Source: a virus. From it: 31,725 bases of DNA. The position numbers and the translations under genes were made by a program. Location: positions 1 through 31,725 of IMG/VR virus record IMGVR_UViG_3300032893_001063; one strand, written 5' to 3'. How positions within the stretch are numbered: the first letter of the stretch is position 1; every line of letters starts with the position of its first letter. Shown one piece after another: positions 3,342-14,930 of this stretch. The notes beneath the pieces were generated by a model, which saw only the letters and a program-made list of their open reading frames with translations, was not told the origin of the DNA and ran no database searches.

Positions 3342-3791
3342 TTGGCTAGGGGCGGCGCGAGGGTCGGCAAGCCGGCGACCCCGTACGCGAATAGAACGGA
3401 CCTGCCCGGCAAGGTGCTGCCGATCACCGCCGCACCCGGGCAGCAGTACGGCGCCGCCGGTGCGCAGATGGCGGCGCAACGGGTTGTGCCCATGGCGAGC
3501 CCGCCCTCGCCAGGGGCACCTGCCGGCGGCGGTCCTCCTCAGGCGGGGCCGCCGCCGGTACCACCTGGCGGTCTCGGCCATATCGCTCGCCCGTCAGAGC
3601 GCCCGGCCGAGCACGTCATGACGGGGGTGGCCTCCGGCCCCGGTGCTGGTCCGGAGGCCATCCCCGGCTACCAACCGCAGCAGGCCAACCAGGCGCCGAA
3701 GGTCTCCGACATGCTCGACCAGGTCGCGCAGCGTTCGGGGATGCAGGCCATCGGTCAGTTGGCTAGCCAAGCCAGGGCGCTCGGGCAGTGA
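3342..3791 (+). CDS. Pro/Gly/Ala-rich virion-associated protein (149 aa)
   Basis: The TTG start is supported by AAGGAG five bases upstream. The N-terminus (MARGGARVGKP, then YANRTDLPG) is a pattern I associate with a small protein found upstream of the giant structural genes in actinophages. Residues about 50-110 are low complexity, rich in Pro, Gly and Ala and probably disordered. The C-terminus (VSDMLDQVAQRSGMQAIGQL) is helical. Its GTGA overlap with the 1644-residue gene implies coupled expression. A structural or chaperone role for the next protein is an inference from position. No enzymatic motif is seen. Confidence 0.65.
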   Translation: MARGGARVGKPATPYANRTDLPGKVLPITAAPGQQYGAAGAQMAAQRVVPMASPPSPGAPAGGGPPQAGPPPVPPGGLGHIARPSERPAEHVMTGVASGPGAGPEAIPGYQPQQANQAPKVSDMLDQVAQRSGMQAIGQLASQARALGQ

Positions 3792-6700
3792 GTGACCCCA
3801 GCGTCAACATCGACAACCTGATCGCGTCGGTCAACGCGGCGTCGAACCTCGATCCTGCCGTGCATGTGGCGATCGCCTCCACCGCGCCCGACGCGGCGAC
3901 GGCGGCAACCAACGCTCAGGCGACGGCTGCCTATGCCCAGGCGACGACGCACGCCAACCAGTTGAAGACGATGTCGGTGGGAGCGCAACTGCAGGCGTGG
4001 AACGCCATGCCGTCGGACCAGCAGTCGCAGTTGCGCTCAGTGGGCTATGCCCCGCCGCCCCAGCCCCGTCACGGTGGCGGCGGCTTGCTCGGCGACATCG
4101 GTGGGGCCTTCTCCGAGGTGGGTTCTGCGCTCGGCACGGCCGCGCACGATGTGCTCAACGCCGCCGGGTCCTCGACGCGCCTGGTGCAGCACACCTATCG
4201 CACGCTCGATGTGCTGCACCTGCAGGCTGAGGGGCAGACGGCCGCGCAGCAGGAGGCGCAGCAGGGCGCCAAGACGGCGCTACACCCGACGTTCAATCCC
4301 GGTGGGCTCAAGCTGGCGTTCAGCCCCGGTGCGTGGGCGAACGCATGGGATTCCACGGAGCACGGCGAGCGCACCTACAACCCGGCCATCGTGCGTCAGT
4401 TGACCAACCAGTACGGCGACGGCACGGTGTCGACGGCCAAGGCCATCGCTTCGACCAACCTTGATCCCAAGAAGCTGCAGGCGCTGTCGAACTACCCGGT
4501 GTTGCAGCAGCAGTGGCAGTCCGATCCTGACCTGCAGGCGGCGGTCAAGTCATTGCTGGGCTCCAAGATCTCCTTCGGGCGCAGTCTCGTCGGCGAGAAG
4601 TTCACGCTCGACCATCCTGCGGCGGCTGCGGCGATCTCCGGTCCTGTGGATGCGGCCTTCGACTTCTTCGGTGACCCGCTCAACGTTCCGCTCGGGGTCG
4701 GCGCCGATGCGCTGCGTGCCCACTTCGCCATCTCGTCGGGTGCTGACGTGTACCGGTTGGCGGGGATCGACCCGACAACGCTCGAGGCCACCGGCAAGGC
4801 TGATCCGGCGGTGGCCCATGCGCTCAACCAGGCTGCCGGCTATATCGCCGACAAGGACCCGCAGGGCCTCTACAACCGCTTCACCATGCTCAAGGGGGCG
4901 CAGGCGTCGCTTGACAGCGCCATCCGTTCCGGTGCGGTGCACGACAAGGGCACGTTCGTGAAGTGGCTGGCCGAACAGGCTGACATGAGCGCCGTTGCCT
5001 CCGGCCAGGCGTTCAAGGTGCAGCGTGCCGGGCAGGAGATGCTGCACGCCACCCCGCTCTCCGATGCGGCGGCGCTGGCCAAGGCGAGATCGGCCGATGC
5101 GATCGACTTCCTGACCAACGTGCCGGGCCTCGGCAAGGCGTTCCACCCGGTGCAGTCGCTCACCAAGCTCATCCCCCAGGGCAACGCCATCTCGCCCACC
5201 TCCGATATCGCCGCCACGCAGTTCCGCGACATGATCGGCCTGGTGCTGCCCCGCGCCCAGGCTGACGCGCTGTCCAACCAGTGGCGTCTCGGCTCCGTGG
5301 CGGAGAAGCGTACGCTGTACTACTCGACGCTGCAGGAGATCTTCCAGACCACCGGATGGTACGACAATCCGAAGACGGCGGCGCGGGCCAGGGAGTTCCT
5401 GCAGCAGGTGATGGAAGACCCGTCGCATGAGGTCTACACCAGCGTCCCTGGGTTGTCGGACAAGCTGATGATCGACGGGAAGATCAAGGCGACCGGTGGC
5501 CTCGGCACGCAGGTGATGGGTTCGTGGCCGATGCCCGACCCGGCGACGCTGCTGGCGCAGAAGAACAAGATCACCCTCGGCGGCAAGGCGCTCAATCTCA
5601 TCAACAACGACGGTATCGACGCCTTCATGCAGGAGGGGTGGAAGCCGTTGCAGCTCCTGCGGCTCGGCTTCGCCCCGCGTGTGGCTGGTGAGGAAGCTTT
5701 CGGTGCCATGCTGCGTGACGGGTTCACCGGTCTGGCCCGCGCTCGGTTGGCTGCTTCTGCGGTTCAGGGCGAGATGGCGGATAGCGTAGCTCGTCAGAAG
5801 TTTATTGATGAATACAACGCCTTGGAACAAAAGGTGCTCATGGCTGAGAAGAACTCAGTTACTGAACCCTTTACGGCGGAACAACAGAGGCTTCTGGCTG
5901 GGGATGATTGGAAGCAGTTTTCAGAGGCTAGAGGATACACTCAGTCTCAGATCCGAGACTTTCAGAAGTTCATGGATATGCACAAAGGTGTTGATCTCGA
6001 TACCTTTGAAGGTTGGCGATCGGTACCCTTCCCTAAGGGAAGTCCGAATGAAGGTGAGGAAGCAGCTTCAATAGATCCGGGTTTACTTTATGATGCTAAG
6101 AGGATTAGAAGTGAGGACCGCATCCTGCCGTGGCACCCGTTGCACGGTGCGTTGGCGGCGCTGAGCGATCATCTGCCCGAGGGTACCGTGCGTGACATCG
6201 TATCGGGGCAGAACCCCGCCCGTGAGCTGTTCGCTCAGGTGGTCGGGGACTCGGCACGCAAGGCGTTCCGCAACGTCGAGGGTAGGCTGGCCGGCCAGGA
6301 GTACACCCAGGCGGCTCGCGAGCTCTACGACCAGTTCGGCCCGTCGCTCTTGGCCGACCAGATCACCGCGGTCCACGCCGGGCACGTCGACTATCTCGAC
6401 TCCGGGAACAACCAGCTCCGTGCGTCCAAGCGTGGTCTCGAGCGCCGGACGGCTGCGATCGTAGCCGATAGCGGTGCATACAAGGGCTACGCGCCGACGG
6501 ACCCGTTGTACCTGCAGGTCTACAAGCGCGACCTCGAGGAGATCGCCAACGATTACCTCGCCCGTAACGCCCTGCGCGGGTTCGGCAATCGTGACCAGCA
6601 GGTGGCCGACGTCGTTCAGGCCATCGAGAGCCCGCAGGCGCGTGGCATCCGTGAGGCGGCGTCGCGCTACTCGGTGCTGCGTGACGGCCGCACCGTCGGC

Positions 6701-8722
6701 GTGGACGCCACGCAAGACGAGGCCACCAGGGACTGGGCCAATTGGGTGGTCGATCACGTCAACGGGTACCTGACCGATACCTCCGGTCAGCCCATCGCCG
6801 ATCTAGCCGACGTACTGCGTACCGGGAAGGCGCCGACGGTCGACCAGTTGGCGGAGATCCCCAAGGACCGTCTGCCGGCTGCCGTGCACGGCCCCGAGAC
6901 GGTGGCGATTGCTCCGCCGTCGGCGTACCAGCAGCACCTGCAGCAGGGCTTCCACCAGTTGGTCGGGCGCCCGATGAACTGGATGGCCCGTCAGCCGATG
7001 TTCGTGCATAATTACGTGCTGGCCAAGCGGGACCTGCAGGGCCTGGCTGACACGTTGGGTGCTGGTGAGGGTACCGATGCGCTCATTCGTGACCGGGCCA
7101 TCGCCCAGGCGGTGAACCGCACGCTGCCGTTCATCCACGACCCGGCGGTGCGCTCGGCGCTCTCGACCAACATGCGCAACCTGATGCCGTTTGAGTTCGC
7201 GCAGGAGCAGTTCTACAAGCGTTGGGCTCGCACGATGGCGTACGCGCCCGATGCGTTCCGCAAGGCGGTGCTGCTCAATGCTGGCCTCGCCCATTCGGGG
7301 CTCACCCACACCGACTCCAACGGCAACGAGTATTTCGACTACCCGCTCATCTCCCAGTTGCAGGCCGAGGTGCTCAACCCTGTGCTCAACGGGTTGCTCG
7401 GGTACAACGCTATGATGCCGGTCAACTCGGGGTTTGCCGGTGAGGTGAAGAACGTGAGCCCGGGACTGTCGCACATCGGCCCGTCGTTCGGCCCGTTGAT
7501 CTCCATTCCCACCAAGTGGCTGGCCAACCGGTACCCCGAGCTGCAACCGGTGAACCAGGCCGTCGAGGGACAGGCCGGTGCCAACACGCCGTACCTCGAG
7601 CAGATGATCCCCGCCAGTCTCTACCGGTTTGGTGCGGCGTTCGACACGTCGTCAGCCACGTACGCCAGTGCTGAGGCATCGGCGATCCAAGCGTTGGAGG
7701 CATCGGGCCATGGGTTGCCCGACAACGCCACGCGTGGCGAGCAGCAGGCGTACCTCGACCGGTTGAAGAACTACACGCGCATCACGGTGTTGCTGCGTGG
7801 CGTGCTCGGGTTCGTCGGTCCGACGGCGCCGACGATCACTCCCGGGCGCCAAGACATCCCTAAGCGTCTCGGCACGCTGCTGCAGACCATGCCGATCCAG
7901 CAGGCGACGGCGGAGCTCGTCCGTGAGTACGGTCCCGAGGCCACGCCGTACACGGTGTTCAAGTCGACGACCCCGGGCAAGGCTGACCTGCCGGCGGCGC
8001 AGTCCACGCTGTCGATGCTGAACGACAACATCGGGTTCTTCTCCAAGTACCCGTTGGCCGGTGGATGGTTGCTGCCGAGCGTATCGGACTCGGGTAAGTT
8101 CTCCGACTCCGCGTACTTGGAGCAACTGGCGATGGGGATGCGTGAGCGGAAGACGCCGTCGAAGATGCTCGACGATGTGGTGTACGCCCGCGACGCGCCG
8201 TACTACTACCAGAACCTCGACACCTACGAGAAGTTGAAGCTGCAGTACACCAACAACTATACGCAGAAGCTCAAGGTGGAGAACGCCTGGGCTGACTGGC
8301 AGGCGCAGTACTTCAAGGCACACCCGGTGTTCGGCGATCAGGTGCAGAACTCGACGAGCGCTACCGATCGGGGCGACATCCTGGCGGAAATGCAGAAGGC
8401 GCTCGCTGATCCGTCATTGCCGGCGACCCCGACGTCGCAGGCCATCGGTGGCCTCGTCCAGAACTACGTCAACTTCCAGGCCATGCAGGCGAAGTACAAG
8501 GCGCTGCATACGACGGCGGGCTCACGTGCTCTGGCGAACCTGGAGAACGCCTTTGCGACGTGGGCCGATAATTATGTGAAGGCGAACCCGGAGGCGACCG
8601 TGTTCTACCAACGTATCGTGCGCCCTGACGTGGGCGGCCCGGCGGCGCAGGCCGACATTCTCGCCGGTGACCAGGCTGCGGCTGCTGCCGATCAGGTGGC
8701 CCCGATCACGGCGGCAAGCTGA
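3788..8722 (+). CDS. Giant minor virion protein, probable internal/ejection protein (1644 aa)
   Basis: The gene starts at a GTG overlapping the previous stop (GTGA). The N-terminal 70 residues are Ala/Thr/Gln-rich, followed by a Gly-rich hinge (GGGGLLGDIGGAF). The rest is long, mostly helical and without obvious transmembrane segments or a catalytic signature. Segments such as WKPLQLLRLGFAPRVAGEEAF (about residues 617-637) and NLMPFEFAQEQFYKRWARTM (about 1130-1150) are typical of the very large structural proteins near the portal in actinophages. In a short-tailed phage such a protein may be carried in the capsid and ejected with the DNA; a tape-measure role is unlikely because no tail-tube genes are present. 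Residues about 664-777 are encoded by an abruptly AT-richer segment. Four other large virion genes follow, three of them with stop-start overlap. Confidence 0.7.
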   Translation: MSDPSVNIDNLIASVNAASNLDPAVHVAIASTAPDAATAATNAQATAAYAQATTHANQLKTMSVGAQLQAWNAMPSDQQSQLRSVGYAPPPQPRHGGGGLLGDIGGAFSEVGSALGTAAHDVLNAAGSSTRLVQHTYRTLDVLHLQAEGQTAAQQEAQQGAKTALHPTFNPGGLKLAFSPGAWANAWDSTEHGERTYNPAIVRQLTNQYGDGTVSTAKAIASTNLDPKKLQALSNYPVLQQQWQSDPDLQAAVKSLLGSKISFGRSLVGEKFTLDHPAAAAAISGPVDAAFDFFGDPLNVPLGVGADALRAHFAISSGADVYRLAGIDPTTLEATGKADPAVAHALNQAAGYIADKDPQGLYNRFTMLKGAQASLDSAIRSGAVHDKGTFVKWLAEQADMSAVASGQAFKVQRAGQEMLHATPLSDAAALAKARSADAIDFLTNVPGLGKAFHPVQSLTKLIPQGNAISPTSDIAATQFRDMIGLVLPRAQADALSNQWRLGSVAEKRTLYYSTLQEIFQTTGWYDNPKTAARAREFLQQVMEDPSHEVYTSVPGLSDKLMIDGKIKATGGLGTQVMGSWPMPDPATLLAQKNKITLGGKALNLINNDGIDAFMQEGWKPLQLLRLGFAPRVAGEEAFGAMLRDGFTGLARARLAASAVQGEMADSVARQKFIDEYNALEQKVLMAEKNSVTEPFTAEQQRLLAGDDWKQFSEARGYTQSQIRDFQKFMDMHKGVDLDTFEGWRSVPFPKGSPNEGEEAASIDPGLLYDAKRIRSEDRILPWHPLHGALAALSDHLPEGTVRDIVSGQNPARELFAQVVGDSARKAFRNVEGRLAGQEYTQAARELYDQFGPSLLADQITAVHAGHVDYLDSGNNQLRASKRGLERRTAAIVADSGAYKGYAPTDPLYLQVYKRDLEEIANDYLARNALRGFGNRDQQVADVVQAIESPQARGIREAASRYSVLRDGRTVGVDATQDEATRDWANWVVDHVNGYLTDTSGQPIADLADVLRTGKAPTVDQLAEIPKDRLPAAVHGPETVAIAPPSAYQQHLQQGFHQLVGRPMNWMARQPMFVHNYVLAKRDLQGLADTLGAGEGTDALIRDRAIAQAVNRTLPFIHDPAVRSALSTNMRNLMPFEFAQEQFYKRWARTMAYAPDAFRKAVLLNAGLAHSGLTHTDSNGNEYFDYPLISQLQAEVLNPVLNGLLGYNAMMPVNSGFAGEVKNVSPGLSHIGPSFGPLISIPTKWLANRYPELQPVNQAVEGQAGANTPYLEQMIPASLYRFGAAFDTSSATYASAEASAIQALEASGHGLPDNATRGEQQAYLDRLKNYTRITVLLRGVLGFVGPTAPTITPGRQDIPKRLGTLLQTMPIQQATAELVREYGPEATPYTVFKSTTPGKADLPAAQSTLSMLNDNIGFFSKYPLAGGWLLPSVSDSGKFSDSAYLEQLAMGMRERKTPSKMLDDVVYARDAPYYYQNLDTYEKLKLQYTNNYTQKLKVENAWADWQAQYFKAHPVFGDQVQNSTSATDRGDILAEMQKALADPSLPATPTSQAIGGLVQNYVNFQAMQAKYKALHTTAGSRALANLENAFATWADNYVKANPEATVFYQRIVRPDVGGPAAQADILAGDQAAAAADQVAPITAAS
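5780..6118 (+). other. In-frame AT-rich segment with foreign codon use inside the giant virion gene
   Basis: From about 5780 to 6118 the reading frame stays open, but codons switch to A/T-ending forms (for example GAA, TTT, GAT, AGA, TTA) and base composition falls visibly, then returns sharply to the high-GC pattern at the ILPWHPLHG segment. The segment encodes about 113 residues, hydrophilic and helical (for example QQRLLAGDDWKQFSEARGY). It has no intein or nuclease motifs and no direct repeats that I could see at its edges. The likely explanation is recombination with a lower-GC relative or insertion of a foreign module into a tolerant part of the protein. Confidence 0.6.
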
Positions 8723-9789
8723 TGGGCCACAACGGTTCGCCACCGACTGCGACGACGGTACCGCCGGCACCGTCACCGTCACCGGGTAACTTCACCGATC
8801 CCAACGTTGCTGGCTCAGGGCCGACGACAACGAACCTGTCGACGTCGTTGTCGGGAGCGTTCGGCATCCCGACCTCTGATCTGTCCATCGGCATCATCGG
8901 CTTGACGGACCCGAGGACGGGGCAGCCGATGTCGTTGCAGGCGGCGATCCAGTTCTTCCAGTCGGCTCCGGCGTCGGTACGTGAACCATTGGTGGCACAG
9001 CTCAGGGCTGCGGGGTACTTCGCCGGGATCACGTCGGGCTCGGAGCTCGACCAGGAGACGACGGCGTACGCCCGGCTGTTGCGTGACTCGATCTGGTCGA
9101 ACCAGGACCCGAACGCCACGTTGTCTGACGCGACCCAGGCGCAGCAGGCCAACGCCGGTGCAGCCGCCGCGCCTCGTACGCTCGGGCTCGGGAAGTACCC
9201 GATCCATCTGACGGCGCCGGCTGACGTGCAGATGGCTGCGGACACGATCTTCCAGACGTTGCTCGGGCGCCGTGCGACGCCGCAGGAGCAGCAGGCGGTG
9301 ACTGCCGGTCTCCACGCGTTGGAGACGGCGCAGGGGCAGTCCGAGCTGCAGCAGTACGCGTCACAGGAGGCGGCGTACTACGGGTTGCAGCATGGTGGGA
9401 TTGCCGCCGATCAGTCGGCCCCCGGTGCAGCTATTCCTGTTGCGACGCCTGCTGCACCTGCTGCGCCGGCCGTGTCTAATGCGCCGGGGGGTGGCCTGAC
9501 GGGTGGTCCGGTGACTGGAGGGCCGATCGGCGTGGCTCCGCCTGCTGCAGCGACAACGACGTCGACGACGTTGCCGGCGAACACGCCAGCCAACCAGGTG
9601 CCGCCTGGCTCGATCCAGTTGGCTGACGGGACGTGGATCGTACCGCCGACGGCGATCGCCTCGACGAATGCTCCGACGGCGTCGGCGCAGGCGTACAGCT
9701 ATGCGATGCAGAACGATCAACCTGAGATCCAGGGACGTACCGTGGCCGCGGCGATGAACGCCATCGCCCAGTTCGTGGGGCAGAAATGA
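8722..9789 (+). CDS. Minor virion protein, low-complexity rich (355 aa)
   Basis: The ATG at 8722 overlaps the stop of the giant gene (TGATG). Residues 1-30 are Pro/Thr/Ser-rich. A helical part (about 70-115, AAIQFFQSAPASVREPLVAQ) follows, and then TIFQTLLGRRATPQEQQAVT at about 173-192, a small helical module with a conserved-looking LLGR-x-A-T/S-x-x-E sequence. After residue 225 comes a Pro/Ala/Gly/Thr linker, then a short ordered tail containing LADGTWIVPPTAI. No enzyme motif is visible. It is flanked by the 1644-residue protein and by a protein with a lysozyme-like domain, so I class it as an internal or portal-vertex virion protein by context. Family identity is unknown to me. Confidence 0.6.
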   Translation: MGHNGSPPTATTVPPAPSPSPGNFTDPNVAGSGPTTTNLSTSLSGAFGIPTSDLSIGIIGLTDPRTGQPMSLQAAIQFFQSAPASVREPLVAQLRAAGYFAGITSGSELDQETTAYARLLRDSIWSNQDPNATLSDATQAQQANAGAAAAPRTLGLGKYPIHLTAPADVQMAADTIFQTLLGRRATPQEQQAVTAGLHALETAQGQSELQQYASQEAAYYGLQHGGIAADQSAPGAAIPVATPAAPAAPAVSNAPGGGLTGGPVTGGPIGVAPPAAATTTSTTLPANTPANQVPPGSIQLADGTWIVPPTAIASTNAPTASAQAYSYAMQNDQPEIQGRTVAAAMNAIAQFVGQK

Positions 9790-11506: not shown

Positions 11507-12753
11507 CTGACACGCTCACGCAAACTCCGACGCAGACGACGGCACCGGTACCTCCACCGCCGGGGACACCGACGACGCCAACCGTCGGGAGCATTGATCC
11601 CGGAATCACGCCGGGGCAGCAGATCCCAGCGTGGGGGACAGCATCTATCGGGGGCCTCAACCCTGGCGGAGCGATGAAGTCTGGTACCGCTCCCACCGGG
11701 CGCATCGTCAACCCGCAGACGGGTCGCCCAGCCTATACCGGTCCCGAGGGGCAGCCGGGTTACGGCGCACCGCAGCCGGGCCAGAACCTCACCGCGTACA
11801 CGATGCCCGACGGTACGCAGGTGTGGTACGACCCCAACGCTGCGCCGGACCAGGGCAATCTCGCTGCGCTGCAGGCGTACCAGGGCACCGGTCCCAACGG
11901 TCCGACGGCGCAGGCCGACGCCATGCAGACGGCGCTGTCGCTGCTCGCTGGCTACGGAGTCACAGGCGCGGACGCCACGACGCTCGCCAACTGGATGTGG
12001 CAGCAGCACGTCCAGGGCTACTCCGACACCTCGATCGCCCAGTTGCTGCTCACGCAGCCGATCATCCAGCAGTACTTCCCCGAGATCGCGGCGCGCCAGA
12101 AGGCCGGGCTCCCGCCAATCAGCCCCGGCGACATCGTGAGCTACAAGAACCAGGTGGCGCAGTACGCCAGCCAGTACGGCATCCCCAAGGAGTTCACCGA
12201 TCAGTTCACCAGCCAGTGGATCGTCAATGACGTGTCGATGGCCGAGGTCGGCCAGCGGATGCAGGACTACGCCCAGGCGGCGTTCCAGTCCAACCCGGCG
12301 GTGCTGAACCAACTGCAGACGCTGTACGGCGTCACGCCCGGCGAGCTCACCGCCTTCTTCGCCGACCCAGCGACGGCGCTGCCGATCATCCAGAAGCGCT
12401 TCCAGGCGTCACAGATCGCCGGTCAGGGGCAGATCGCCGGCTACGGGCAGCTCACCCAGCAGCAGGCCGAGACGCTCGCCAATCAAGGTGTGACGCAGGC
12501 CCAGGCGCAGTCGGGCTTCCAGCAGCTTGGGCTCGAGCAGCAGTTGTTCAACACACTGCCGGGGCAGGCGGGGCAGACGCCGATCACCCAGGAGCAGCAG
12601 TTGGGCGCCCAGTTCCTCGGCAACGCGGCTGACGTCCGTATGATCCAGTTGGAGGCGCTGCGCCGGCAGGCGGCGTTCCAGGGTGGAGGGAACTATGCCG
12701 GTGGACAGAAGGGCCTGACGGGTCTCGGCAGTGAACAAGGAGCGCAGGCATGA
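11503..12753 (+). CDS. Gln-rich minor virion protein (416 aa)
   Basis: The start overlaps the previous stop (ATGA). Residues 1-60 are a Pro/Thr linker-like region. The core (about 120-300) is helical with IAQLLLTQPIIQQYFPEIAA, YASQYGIPKEFTDQF and VTPGELTAFFADPATALPII. The C-terminal third is extremely Gln-rich (LTQQQAETLANQGVTQAQAQ), ending in a Gly/Gln tail. The style matches the second half of the 484-residue lysozyme-like protein, so both may belong to the same portal-vertex or ejection assembly. No enzymatic motif is seen. It is probably structural; the exact role is unknown. Confidence 0.6.
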   Translation: MTDTLTQTPTQTTAPVPPPPGTPTTPTVGSIDPGITPGQQIPAWGTASIGGLNPGGAMKSGTAPTGRIVNPQTGRPAYTGPEGQPGYGAPQPGQNLTAYTMPDGTQVWYDPNAAPDQGNLAALQAYQGTGPNGPTAQADAMQTALSLLAGYGVTGADATTLANWMWQQHVQGYSDTSIAQLLLTQPIIQQYFPEIAARQKAGLPPISPGDIVSYKNQVAQYASQYGIPKEFTDQFTSQWIVNDVSMAEVGQRMQDYAQAAFQSNPAVLNQLQTLYGVTPGELTAFFADPATALPIIQKRFQASQIAGQGQIAGYGQLTQQQAETLANQGVTQAQAQSGFQQLGLEQQLFNTLPGQAGQTPITQEQQLGAQFLGNAADVRMIQLEALRRQAAFQGGGNYAGGQKGLTGLGSEQGAQA

Positions 12754-12926
12754 GTGACGTGCCGAAGAAGGGCGGCCTCAAGTTGGAACGGTGGCTTGCT
12801 GAGCGCCAGTTCATGTGGGAGCGCGAGGGAGTGTGGCGTGTCTGGAAGGACTGTTCGTTGGAGGAGCAGTATGAGATCCGCCTGCAGGTCCTTCGTGGTG
12901 GGGTGGAGGTGCTTGATGGCGAATAG
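12750..12926 (+). CDS. Small hypothetical protein (58 aa)
   Basis: The ATG at 12750 overlaps the stop of the Gln-rich protein (ATGA). The product begins MSDVPKKGGLKLERWLAERQ and ends with VLRGGVEVLDGE. It is rich in Trp and charged residues (four Trp in the first 32 residues), suggesting a compact helical fold. Its last 11 bases overlap the next gene. No family is recognised. Support comes from the junction at its start and the absence of any better frame in this interval. Confidence 0.55.
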   Translation: MSDVPKKGGLKLERWLAERQFMWEREGVWRVWKDCSLEEQYEIRLQVLRGGVEVLDGE

Positions 12927-13095
12927 ACGGTCGTCGGTCAAGCCGGTGACGCCGGCCAACAAGGCGATGTCCCGCAAGCACCTCCGTGAGTCGGTGGCGT
13001 TCAACGAGTCCCACGCGGCGGAGCACAAGAAGGCGGCGGCGCAGGACCGCAAGAAGCTGGCGCAGCTCCGCAAGGGTGGCCGCGCTTCTGGGTGA
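12916..13095 (+). CDS. Small Lys/Arg-rich protein (59 aa)
   Basis: GGAGGT at 12905-12910 lies five bases before the ATG at 12916, a good ribosome site inside the end of the previous gene. The product is highly basic (MANRRSSVKPVTPANKAMSR at the start, LRKGGRASG at the end) with a His/Ala/Lys helix (ESHAAEHKKAAAQDRKKLAQ). It could bind nucleic acid or the acidic scaffold, but this is inference. Its stop codon falls inside the left arm of the 12-bp inverted repeat that begins the structured intergenic region. Confidence 0.6.
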   Translation: MANRRSSVKPVTPANKAMSRKHLRESVAFNESHAAEHKKAAAQDRKKLAQLRKGGRASG

Positions 13096-13276
13096 GGTAG
13101 CCGCCGGGGAGTCGAACCCCGAGACGGGTGTCCAACGAGCCCGACCGTTTTCGCGTCTCGCCCGGGACTTATAACGCTGGTCTTTCGAGAGAAGTGGCCG
13201 TCACTACGGACGCACGATGACGGCTGCGTCTACTTCCCGCTGGGGTGGCCGCACCCAGCGTTCAGCTACCTCACCC
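13090..13276. ncRNA. Candidate structured RNA, ~187 nt, closed by a perfect 12-bp stem
   Basis: The ends form a perfect inverted repeat (GGGTGAGGTAGC at 13090-13101 with GCTACCTCACCC at 13265-13276). Nested inside are: a 5-bp stem with 7-nt loop (13105-13109/13117-13121), whose minus-strand loop UUCGACU fits the tRNA T-loop consensus; AGACG/CGTCT (13122-13126/13154-13158); GAAGT/ACTTC (13191-13195/13232-13236) enclosing GCCGTCA/TGACGGC (13197-13203/13218-13224); and CGCTGGG/CCCAGCG (13238-13244/13254-13260). A helix GACGCA/TGCGTC (13209-13214/13225-13230) could replace the GCCGTCA helix. Together this is a multi-branched fold between virion-protein and scaffold genes. The strand is unresolved: the T-loop favours minus, the operon context favours plus. 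I could not fit a complete tRNA or tmRNA. Confidence 0.45.
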
Positions 13277-13279
13277 GAC

Positions 13280-13307
13280 AGCGTACTCCGTAGGGGTGCT
13301 TGACGCT
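13280..13307 (+). other. Hairpin following the structured RNA candidate
   Basis: AGCGT at 13280-13284 pairs with ACGCT at 13303-13307. Inside it ACTCC (13285-13289) pairs with GGGGT (13293-13297) around a 3-nt loop, with a 5-nt bulge on the right. The inner stem needs a G-U pair in the + strand RNA, where the minus strand would have an A-C mismatch, so this hairpin favours + strand transcription. It has no T-run and is not a classical terminator. Confidence 0.4.
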
Positions 13308-13359
13308 CCTGTTTGGATGTGGTTCACTTCCGCCAGCAGGTCTGTCCCGTTATTGCGTC

Positions 13360-13426
13360 CTCGTCCCTGACGAGTGTGAGCGGCGGGCGCGGTCCTTGGC
13401 TCGCTCACCCTCGAGTGTCATCGAGG
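13360..13426. other. Three tandem hairpins upstream of the scaffold gene
   Basis: Three perfect inverted repeats follow one another almost without gap: CTCGTC/GACGAG (13360-13365/13369-13374, 3-nt loop), GTGAGCG/CGCTCAC (13376-13382/13402-13408, 19-nt loop) and CCTCGA/TCGAGG (13409-13414/13421-13426, 6-nt loop). A 10-base palindrome CGCGTACGCG follows at 13463-13472. None has a U-run, so they are not standard terminators. They may form part of the capsid-operon leader, as an RNA processing or stability element, or a protein-binding site. The rest of 13277-13490 holds no gene I can support and no convincing -35/-10 pair. Confidence 0.45.
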
Positions 13427-13478
13427 CGGCAAGGCCACAACGATCCGTGCGCGGCCCTCCGTCGCGTACGCGGCGAAC

Positions 13479-13483
13479 AGGAG
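13479..13483 (+). promoter_or_regulatory. Ribosome binding site for GTG-started scaffold gene
   Basis: AGGAG stands seven bases before the GTG at 13491. It fixes the start of the scaffold gene, the first gene after the long untranslated gap. It is not coupled to an upstream reading frame, unlike most genes here. Confidence 0.65.
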
Positions 13484-13490
13484 CGACAGC

Positions 13491-13940
13491 GTGCCAGACG
13501 AAGATGACGACGACCTCGAGCAACCGCAGAAGGCCGGCCTCCGTGAGCGGATGAAGGCTCTGGAGGAGAAGGCCAAGCAGTACGAGGAAGCCCAGGCCAG
13601 GGCCGAGAGGCTCGAATGGGAGCTCGCCGTGCGGGACTCCGGGGTCGACATGACCCCGACGAAGCGCAAGGCGCTCATGGCCGTGCACGAAGGCGACCGC
13701 GACCCGGAGTCCATCCGGCGCACTGCCATCGAGCTGGGGTTCATCCAGGAATCTTCGGGCGAACCGGCAGTACCGGAACTGGCGACGCTGGACAGGATCA
13801 ACCAAGCGTCCGCAGGTGCCGCCCCCGGTGGGCAGGTCCCGAACCAATGGGCTGAACGCGACCAGCGGTTGCAGCAGGCCAAGTCCGAGGCCGAGTTCGA
13901 TTCCATCCTCCGGGAGTACGGGACCACCATGGCAAAATAA
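13491..13940 (+). CDS. Capsid scaffolding protein
   Basis: This 149-residue protein is acidic at the N-terminus (MPDEDDDDLEQ) and has a strong charged coiled-coil at residues about 15-45 (LRERMKALEEKAKQYEEAQA). It has a flexible Gly/Pro middle and a C-terminal helix containing AKSEAEFDSILREYG (130-144). This layout, the short length and the position immediately before the major capsid gene are typical of phage scaffolds, whose C-terminal helix usually contacts the capsid shell. It would nucleate prohead assembly and be lost before packaging. The GTG start is supported by AGGAG seven bases upstream. A related AK-x-EA-x-FD motif occurs in the 90-residue protein at 16347. Confidence 0.8.
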   Translation: MPDEDDDDLEQPQKAGLRERMKALEEKAKQYEEAQARAERLEWELAVRDSGVDMTPTKRKALMAVHEGDRDPESIRRTAIELGFIQESSGEPAVPELATLDRINQASAGAAPGGQVPNQWAERDQRLQQAKSEAEFDSILREYGTTMAK

Positions 13941-13952
13941 GGAGAGCCAGCA

Positions 13953-14930
13953 ATGGCCGCAGGCCCGTACACCGGTGGACCGACGACCGTCGCGTCCAGC
14001 CTGGACTATGACCAGACTGCGTGGGAGCTCAAGGCGTACTTCGCACTGCGCTACGAGCTGTACTTCGACGCCGTCGCCGACGTGAAGACGACCGACCAGT
14101 CCTACGTGGGCTCGGCCGTGACCTTCACCATCCAGTCGGACCTGGCGGCCGCCTCCACGGCGCTCAACGAGTCGATCGACGTCACCCCCGCGGCGCTGGC
14201 TGACAGCCAGGTCACCCTCACCCTCGCTGAGTACGGCAACGCCGTGCAGATCTCGGCCCTCGAGCTCGGGACGTCGTTCATCCCGCTCGACCCGGTGATG
14301 GCGAACGTGGTCGGCTATAACGCCGGCCTCTCGCTCGACACCGTAGCCCGCGACGTGCTCAAGGCCGGCACCAACGTCCGGTACTCCACCGGCACCGGTG
14401 TGGCCCCGACGTCGCGCAACACGGTGACGCCGCCCAACACCATCGGGGCAGCCGACGTGCGCCGCACGCTCGCCGACCTGCGTGACGCCAACGTCCCCAC
14501 CATCGGCGGGATGTACGTGGCGTTCATCCATCCCGACGTGGCCTACGACCTGCGGGGGACCACCGGCTCCGCCGCCTGGCGTGACCCGCACACCTACTCC
14601 CAGCCCGGAGAGATCTGGAATGGCGAGGTCGGCGTGTTCGAGGGTTCACGCTTCATCGAGACGCCGCGTGCGCCGATCTTCACCGACGCCGGCTCCTCGA
14701 CGACCCTCACCGACGTCTACCGCACCATCTGGGTCGGGCGTCAGGCACTGGCCAAGACGTGGTCGACGGCCTATGGCAACGGCCCCATGCCTCGCATCTT
14801 CCCCACGCCGATCATTGATATGCTCAGGAGATTCCCTGGAATGGCATGGTATTGGCTCGGAGCATATGGAATATTTAGGTCCGCTTGTGTAAGGGCTTAC
14901 GAATCCGCTTCGTCCATTGGTGCGAACTAG
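13953..14930 (+). CDS. Major capsid protein, N4-gp56-like family
   Basis: This 325-residue protein has AAGGAG overlapping the scaffold stop, eight bases before the ATG. Recognisable features are LKAYFALRYELYFDAV near residues 24-39, TPAALADSQVTLTLAEYGNA (about 78-97), LSLDTVARDVLKAGTNV (about 125-141), the MYVAFIHPDVAYDLRG strand (about 189-204), GEIWNGEVGVFEGSRFIE (about 218-235), and a C-terminus with LRRFPGMAWYWLGAYGIFR and ESASSIG. This order is characteristic of the N4-gp56 group of HK97-fold capsid proteins as I know it. It builds the icosahedral shell with the scaffold. The last ~115 bases are much AT-richer than the rest although the protein sequence stays conserved. This recoded tail abuts an HNH endonuclease gene. 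Confidence 0.88.
   Translation: MAAGPYTGGPTTVASSLDYDQTAWELKAYFALRYELYFDAVADVKTTDQSYVGSAVTFTIQSDLAAASTALNESIDVTPAALADSQVTLTLAEYGNAVQISALELGTSFIPLDPVMANVVGYNAGLSLDTVARDVLKAGTNVRYSTGTGVAPTSRNTVTPPNTIGAADVRRTLADLRDANVPTIGGMYVAFIHPDVAYDLRGTTGSAAWRDPHTYSQPGEIWNGEVGVFEGSRFIETPRAPIFTDAGSSTTLTDVYRTIWVGRQALAKTWSTAYGNGPMPRIFPTPIIDMLRRFPGMAWYWLGAYGIFRSACVRAYESASSIGAN
14812..14930 (+). other. Recoded, AT-rich 3' end of the capsid gene beside an HNH gene
   Basis: The final ~39 codons of the capsid gene abruptly switch to A/T-rich codons (for example ATT, GAT, AGG, AGA, GGA, ATA, TTT), while the encoded residues keep the expected family C-terminus. An imperfect palindrome with arms GTAAG/CTTAC lies at 14889-14900. 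The endonuclease gene begins 25 bases after the stop. The pattern fits a co-conversion tract or an altered homing target site that arrived with the endonuclease. Confidence 0.5.

Follow-up and report, generated by a model that had tools for sequence, protein, structure and literature searches.

The window, i.e., the whole stretch of DNA analyzed here, is a 31,725-base virus record from IMG/VR. Its major capsid protein (MCP) gene is preceded by a scaffold-type gene assigned from its homologue in phage Dennebes, which carries the annotation scaffolding protein. A gap of 395 nt (13096–13490) separates these genes from the small gene before them. By capsid, the best isolate relatives are the Beephvirinae, podoviruses of Streptomyces that are 37–40% identical and have a gene layout in common with the window, including a 4,935-base gene of the same length as that at 3788–8722. 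A capsid search of IMG/VR returned at least 80 loci with relatives. Among the matches listed, the closest are L002 (capsid 97% identical), L003 (84%), and L004, L052 and L053 (66–70%), beyond which many others are 54–60% identical. The features of the gap and its surroundings are collected in Table 1.

Some features of the record lie outside the gap. A small ORF (MSDVPKKGGLKLERW...) occupies 12750–12925, between a virion gene and the MANRRSS gene, and is missing at the same junction in L002. On the plus strand, no other part of the record gives as strong a folding signal as 3369–3597 (z −5.9, GC ~0.77), inside or adjoining ORF 3342–3791. A gene of the virion block contains, at 9275–9468, an inverted repeat whose arms of 23 nt are 87% complementary and lie 148 nt apart.

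Table 1. Features of the gap, the adjoining genes, and the array RNA of the Beephvirinae
Feature	Position	Strand	Remark
12-bp inverted repeat, left arm	13090..13101	+	Holds the TGA stop (13093–13095) of the preceding small gene
T-arm-like hairpin CGGGG-UUCGACU-CCCCG	13105..13121	−	No tRNA around it
Spacer internal helix GGCCGUCA/UGACGGCU	13196..13225	+	Folding only, without comparative support
Spacer internal hairpin CGCUGGG...CCCAGCG	13238..13260	+	Folding only
12-bp inverted repeat, right arm	13265..13276	+	From sequence
Promoter-like TTGACG-17 nt-TTCACT	13300..13328	+	Upstream of scaffold/capsid operon; weak −10
Scaffold/capsid operon leader RNA	~13335..13490	+	Start inferred from promoter
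Leader hairpin CCUCGA/UCGAGG	13409..13426	+	Possible middle hairpin; from sequence only
Leader terminal hairpin CGUGCGCGGC-CCUCC-GUCGCGUACG	13446..13470	+	Anti-Shine-Dalgarno loop at 13456–13460
Shine-Dalgarno AGGAG of scaffold gene	13479..13483	+	Complementary to the CCUCC loop
Scaffold-type gene	13491..13940	+	149 aa, GTG start; translated from the leader; homologue-based
MCP gene	13953..14930	+	phrog_1357, PF13252
~245-nt array RNA copies	L034:4306–4550, L035:1522–1766, L039:1379–1622, L043:801–1043, L044:801–1045, L047:7322–7565, L049:2764–3007		
~245-nt array RNA copies	L046, L050	−	

An earlier note on this DNA proposed that positions 13090–13276 (187 nt) form an undescribed structured RNA. 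The features on which it drew are real. The perfect 12-bp inverted repeat is present and extends to a 19-nt repeat (84%) at 13083–13101/13265–13283, further perfect helices lie inside it, and the minus-strand T-loop match beside an acceptor-like stem is the sole T-arm-like match in the window. The note also placed the element in the only sizeable intergenic gap; the element occupies only the upstream half of this gap, and downstream of it are a promoter-like TTGACG (13300) and then the scaffold leader.

The element does not, however, stand clearly beyond chance. Across the window, two perfect 12-bp repeats with a spacing of 100–250 are observed versus 0.62 expected from dinucleotide shuffles, and the chance of such a T-arm in the window as a whole is 0.045. 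Within the 395-nt gap, the repeat has a probability of 0.006 and the T-arm one of 0.001, but both features were picked post hoc. The folding energy of the exact element frame against the rest of the window gives z-scores of −2.4 (plus strand) and −2.2 (minus strand), and equally extreme values occur at nine and thirteen other places on the respective strands; relative to its own shuffles, the plus-strand fold reaches z −3.5. The repeat and helices could be chance features of a functionless, GC-rich, non-coding spacer, as the expected number of repeats and the equally stable places elsewhere suggest. Against this are the low probabilities within the gap, post hoc as they are, and the self-complementarity of the corresponding slots in L002 and L003, and the reading is considered possible but unlikely.

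The flanks of the slot in L002 match the window at 96–97%, yet the sequence between them differs and has two hairpins, one of 8 bp and a GC one of 12 bp that ends in a U-rich tail. L003 carries a third, unrelated and strongly self-complementary stretch. In most of the more distant relatives, the promoter directly follows the stop codon and there is no slot. In the Beephvirinae, the same position, after the virion block and ahead of the scaffold/capsid genes, is filled by 14–22 tRNA genes on the plus strand (e.g., in Kumquat, FlowerPower, Immanuel3 and Abafar); the element of the window, by contrast, is no tRNA. Since L002, L003, the distant relatives and the Beephvirinae all differ here, the content of the slot is one that is exchanged between lineages. 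For the same reason, i.e., unrelated sequence at the homologous position of the closest relatives, there is no covariation to show for the element. Searches for the element itself gave only short chance matches by blast against phages and plasmids, and no match to its exact core pattern or inverted-repeat pair in the viral contigs of IMG/VR; the collections searched may omit records very near the window, so that a close relative bearing the element could exist unseen. With unrelated sequence in its closest relatives and no relative found anywhere searched, the 187-nt unit does not hold up as a conserved RNA.

A structured RNA does exist among the tRNA arrays of the Beephvirinae. Approximately 245 nt long and located at varying tRNA junctions, it has 73 consensus pairs, 18 of which are changed on both sides among nine sequences, and it has no Rfam match. 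Model searches found no copy in Immanuel3, Manuel or the window; Abafar retains 30 nt of the 3′ end and gives a weak match to the model (E 1.5e-4). Homology of the window element to this RNA was considered, but none was found with its covariance model, R2, in either the element or the window as a whole.

The element might, by analogy, be a discrete non-coding RNA of one lineage, with a multi-branched plus-strand fold closed by the 12-bp helix, sitting in a slot for RNA cargo. The slot is syntenic with the Beephvirinae tRNA arrays and their 245-nt RNA, the plus-strand fold is more stable than its own shuffles, only the plus strand retains its G-U pairs, and coding signal is absent. Opposed to this are the lack of a homologue, the absence of the element from L002, a folding energy that is modest relative to the rest of the window, and the failure of the 245-nt RNA model to match; together they make such an RNA improbable.

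The earlier note could not fit the element to a tRNA or a tmRNA, and further searches confirm that it is neither. ARAGORN is negative, a scan with all Rfam models gives no tRNA or tmRNA match at E ≤ 10, and no family of Rfam 15 exceeds its gathering threshold in the 187 nt. In the test against tRNA (RF00005), the T-arm is found, but the acceptor, D and anticodon arms are not; in that against tmRNA, there is no match to the tRNA-like domain and relaxed ARAGORN identified no tag. The models that relaxed ARAGORN did produce are spurious and overlap one another. The note's further suggestion of a tRNA mimic has the single T-arm as its sole basis, with no acceptor/anticodon arrangement and no tRNA or tmRNA model match, and is not supported. 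A remnant tRNA or tmRNA gene on the minus strand, left from a Beephvirinae-like array, would fit the perfect T-arm adjoining an acceptor-like helix and the occupation of the slot by such arrays. It is largely refuted by the searches above, by the plus-strand orientation of the arrays, and by the absence of tRNA genes from 111 IMG/VR relatives. Least credible of all is a small MITE-like mobile element inserted at the stop codon, in keeping with the perfect terminal inverted repeat and with a similarity to L002 that breaks off abruptly near the element ends, but at odds with the lack of a second copy in the window or of the repeat pair in viral contigs, with the presence of other sequence rather than an empty site in L002, and with a target duplication not being seen.

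Coding signal is likewise lacking in the element, which has a non-coding codon score. Readthrough of the stop codon was considered, as 65 codons are open after the TGA, and rejected given this score and the absence of homologues. Like intrinsic terminators, the element is rich in GC, can pair with itself and follows the final gene of an operon, and the L002 hairpin at this place has a U-rich tail. Unlike them, it is multi-branched, has no U-tract and yields no terminator call. Positions 13083–13290 are most likely a self-complementary, non-coding spacer of one lineage, extending from the end of the virion-protein operon to the capsid promoter. Judged by its position and by the hairpins of L002, the spacer would most likely act, if at all, as a 3′-UTR/terminator-like or insulating structure. 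If this is right, an inverted repeat that catches the eye may only adjoin the RNA that matters, without being conserved itself.

The earlier note also raised a role for the RNA in capsid expression. This is not supported for the 187-nt unit, but a candidate of that kind exists further downstream in the gap, in the form of the scaffold-gene leader at ~13335–13490, for which Rfam 15 gives no family above the gathering threshold. L002, L003 and L004 share, in the corresponding position, the TTGAC of the promoter-like sequence before it, although a scanner run on the window did not list this promoter. In leaders of related phages, a hairpin whose loop is of the CCUCC type recurs a short way ahead of the Shine-Dalgarno sequence, and the leader of the window carries the same motif, with a 10-bp stem, a CCUCC loop and CUCC/GGAG pairing (p 0.003).

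In the test applied to the leaders, the loop must complement the Shine-Dalgarno sequence of the gene's own start, the strict rule being a Watson-Crick 4-mer in the loop; the start codons of some leaders were hand-corrected. Over 56 non-redundant leaders, the mean stem around the anti-Shine-Dalgarno loop is 5.4 bp versus 1.3 bp in shuffles. The combined Fisher p is ~3e-24, a value not to be taken literally, as the combination treats leaders as independent once close duplicates are removed. Individually, 30 of the 56 reach p ≤ 0.05 and 26 miss the threshold by the strict rule; L004 and L053 have no clear hairpin in this test. The pattern of one subtype matches 30 distinct sequences, each of which directly precedes a scaffold start; the loci searched contain no match at other positions.

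For one subtype, 13 aligned leaders have three hairpins and, in addition, the loop/Shine-Dalgarno pairing, with 94.1% of cells paired as opposed to 33–56% in slid controls. Their alignment contains 17 pairs with double changes, and none of 500 shuffles is as good; these pair counts exclude a misregistered MAFFT alignment of the short type-1 hairpins. Loop and Shine-Dalgarno sequence also change together, as CUCC/GGAG, CCUCG/CGAGG (L003), CCCU/AGGG (L029), CUCG/CGAG (L128), UUCC/GGAA (L087) and CCUAG/CUAGG (Beephvirinae). CCUCC-like loops as such could be favored for other reasons. A covariance model, R1, locates the leader in relatives, where the scaffold gene begins, with E-values, rough as they are, of 1e-39 to 0.07 (for instance, 1e-15 to 1e-12 for L084–L098, and 2e-4 to 0.07 for L125, L129, L103 and L109). 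Its best match in the window is the leader itself, at 13325–13493 and in exact register, albeit weakly (E 0.11, filters off). Because this match is weak, the case for the window leader rests on its place, its terminal hairpin, and L002 and L003. At the level of sequence, the comparison shows a leader that is conserved in place, with stems that covary and a loop that complements the Shine-Dalgarno sequence through compensating changes.

The favored reading of the gap at 13096–13490, given a probability of roughly 0.62, is accordingly that of an unconserved lineage spacer followed by a conserved scaffold/capsid leader with a pseudoknot that hides the Shine-Dalgarno sequence. The last hairpin of the leader would present a loop complementary to the scaffold Shine-Dalgarno sequence, and pairing of the two as a pseudoknot would conceal the scaffold ribosome-binding site. 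Scaffold translation would then depend on whether the fold is open, and capsid translation downstream is probably coupled to that of the scaffold. A natural guess is that the fold may be opened by the scaffold protein itself, as a form of autogenous control. The leader thus probably serves in translational control of scaffold and capsid, and in the timing of capsid parts, with repression as the presumed mode.

Pseudoknots that sequester the Shine-Dalgarno sequence are known from translational riboswitches and autogenous leaders, where, as predicted for the window, the gene that follows has its Shine-Dalgarno sequence paired to the loop of a hairpin. Unlike these, leaders of the window's group precede a phage scaffold/capsid operon and have no Rfam match. 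The scaffolding protein of phage P22 is under autogenous control. Control of scaffold synthesis after transcription would be the point of likeness for the window gene.

A bolder and more tentative proposal is that the leader represents a new class of regulatory RNA, in which the upstream hairpins might sense a small molecule, a host factor or the scaffold protein and open or close the pseudoknot accordingly. The timing of scaffold and capsid synthesis would then be set in this manner throughout a large, mostly uncultured group of phages related to Streptomyces podoviruses. No paper describing the leader was found in literature searches. If the favored reading is right, a large group of phages sets its scaffold-to-capsid supply by an RNA switch that acts in cis and has no Rfam entry, and the existence of cultured relatives, the Beephvirinae on Streptomyces, makes the switch directly testable. 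In L034–L039, the Beephvirinae leader takes the form of a strong hairpin (e.g., AGCCACGG-UUCCCUAG-CCGUGGCU followed by UUU) in the ~80 nt before the scaffold gene begins, which might also serve as an attenuator.
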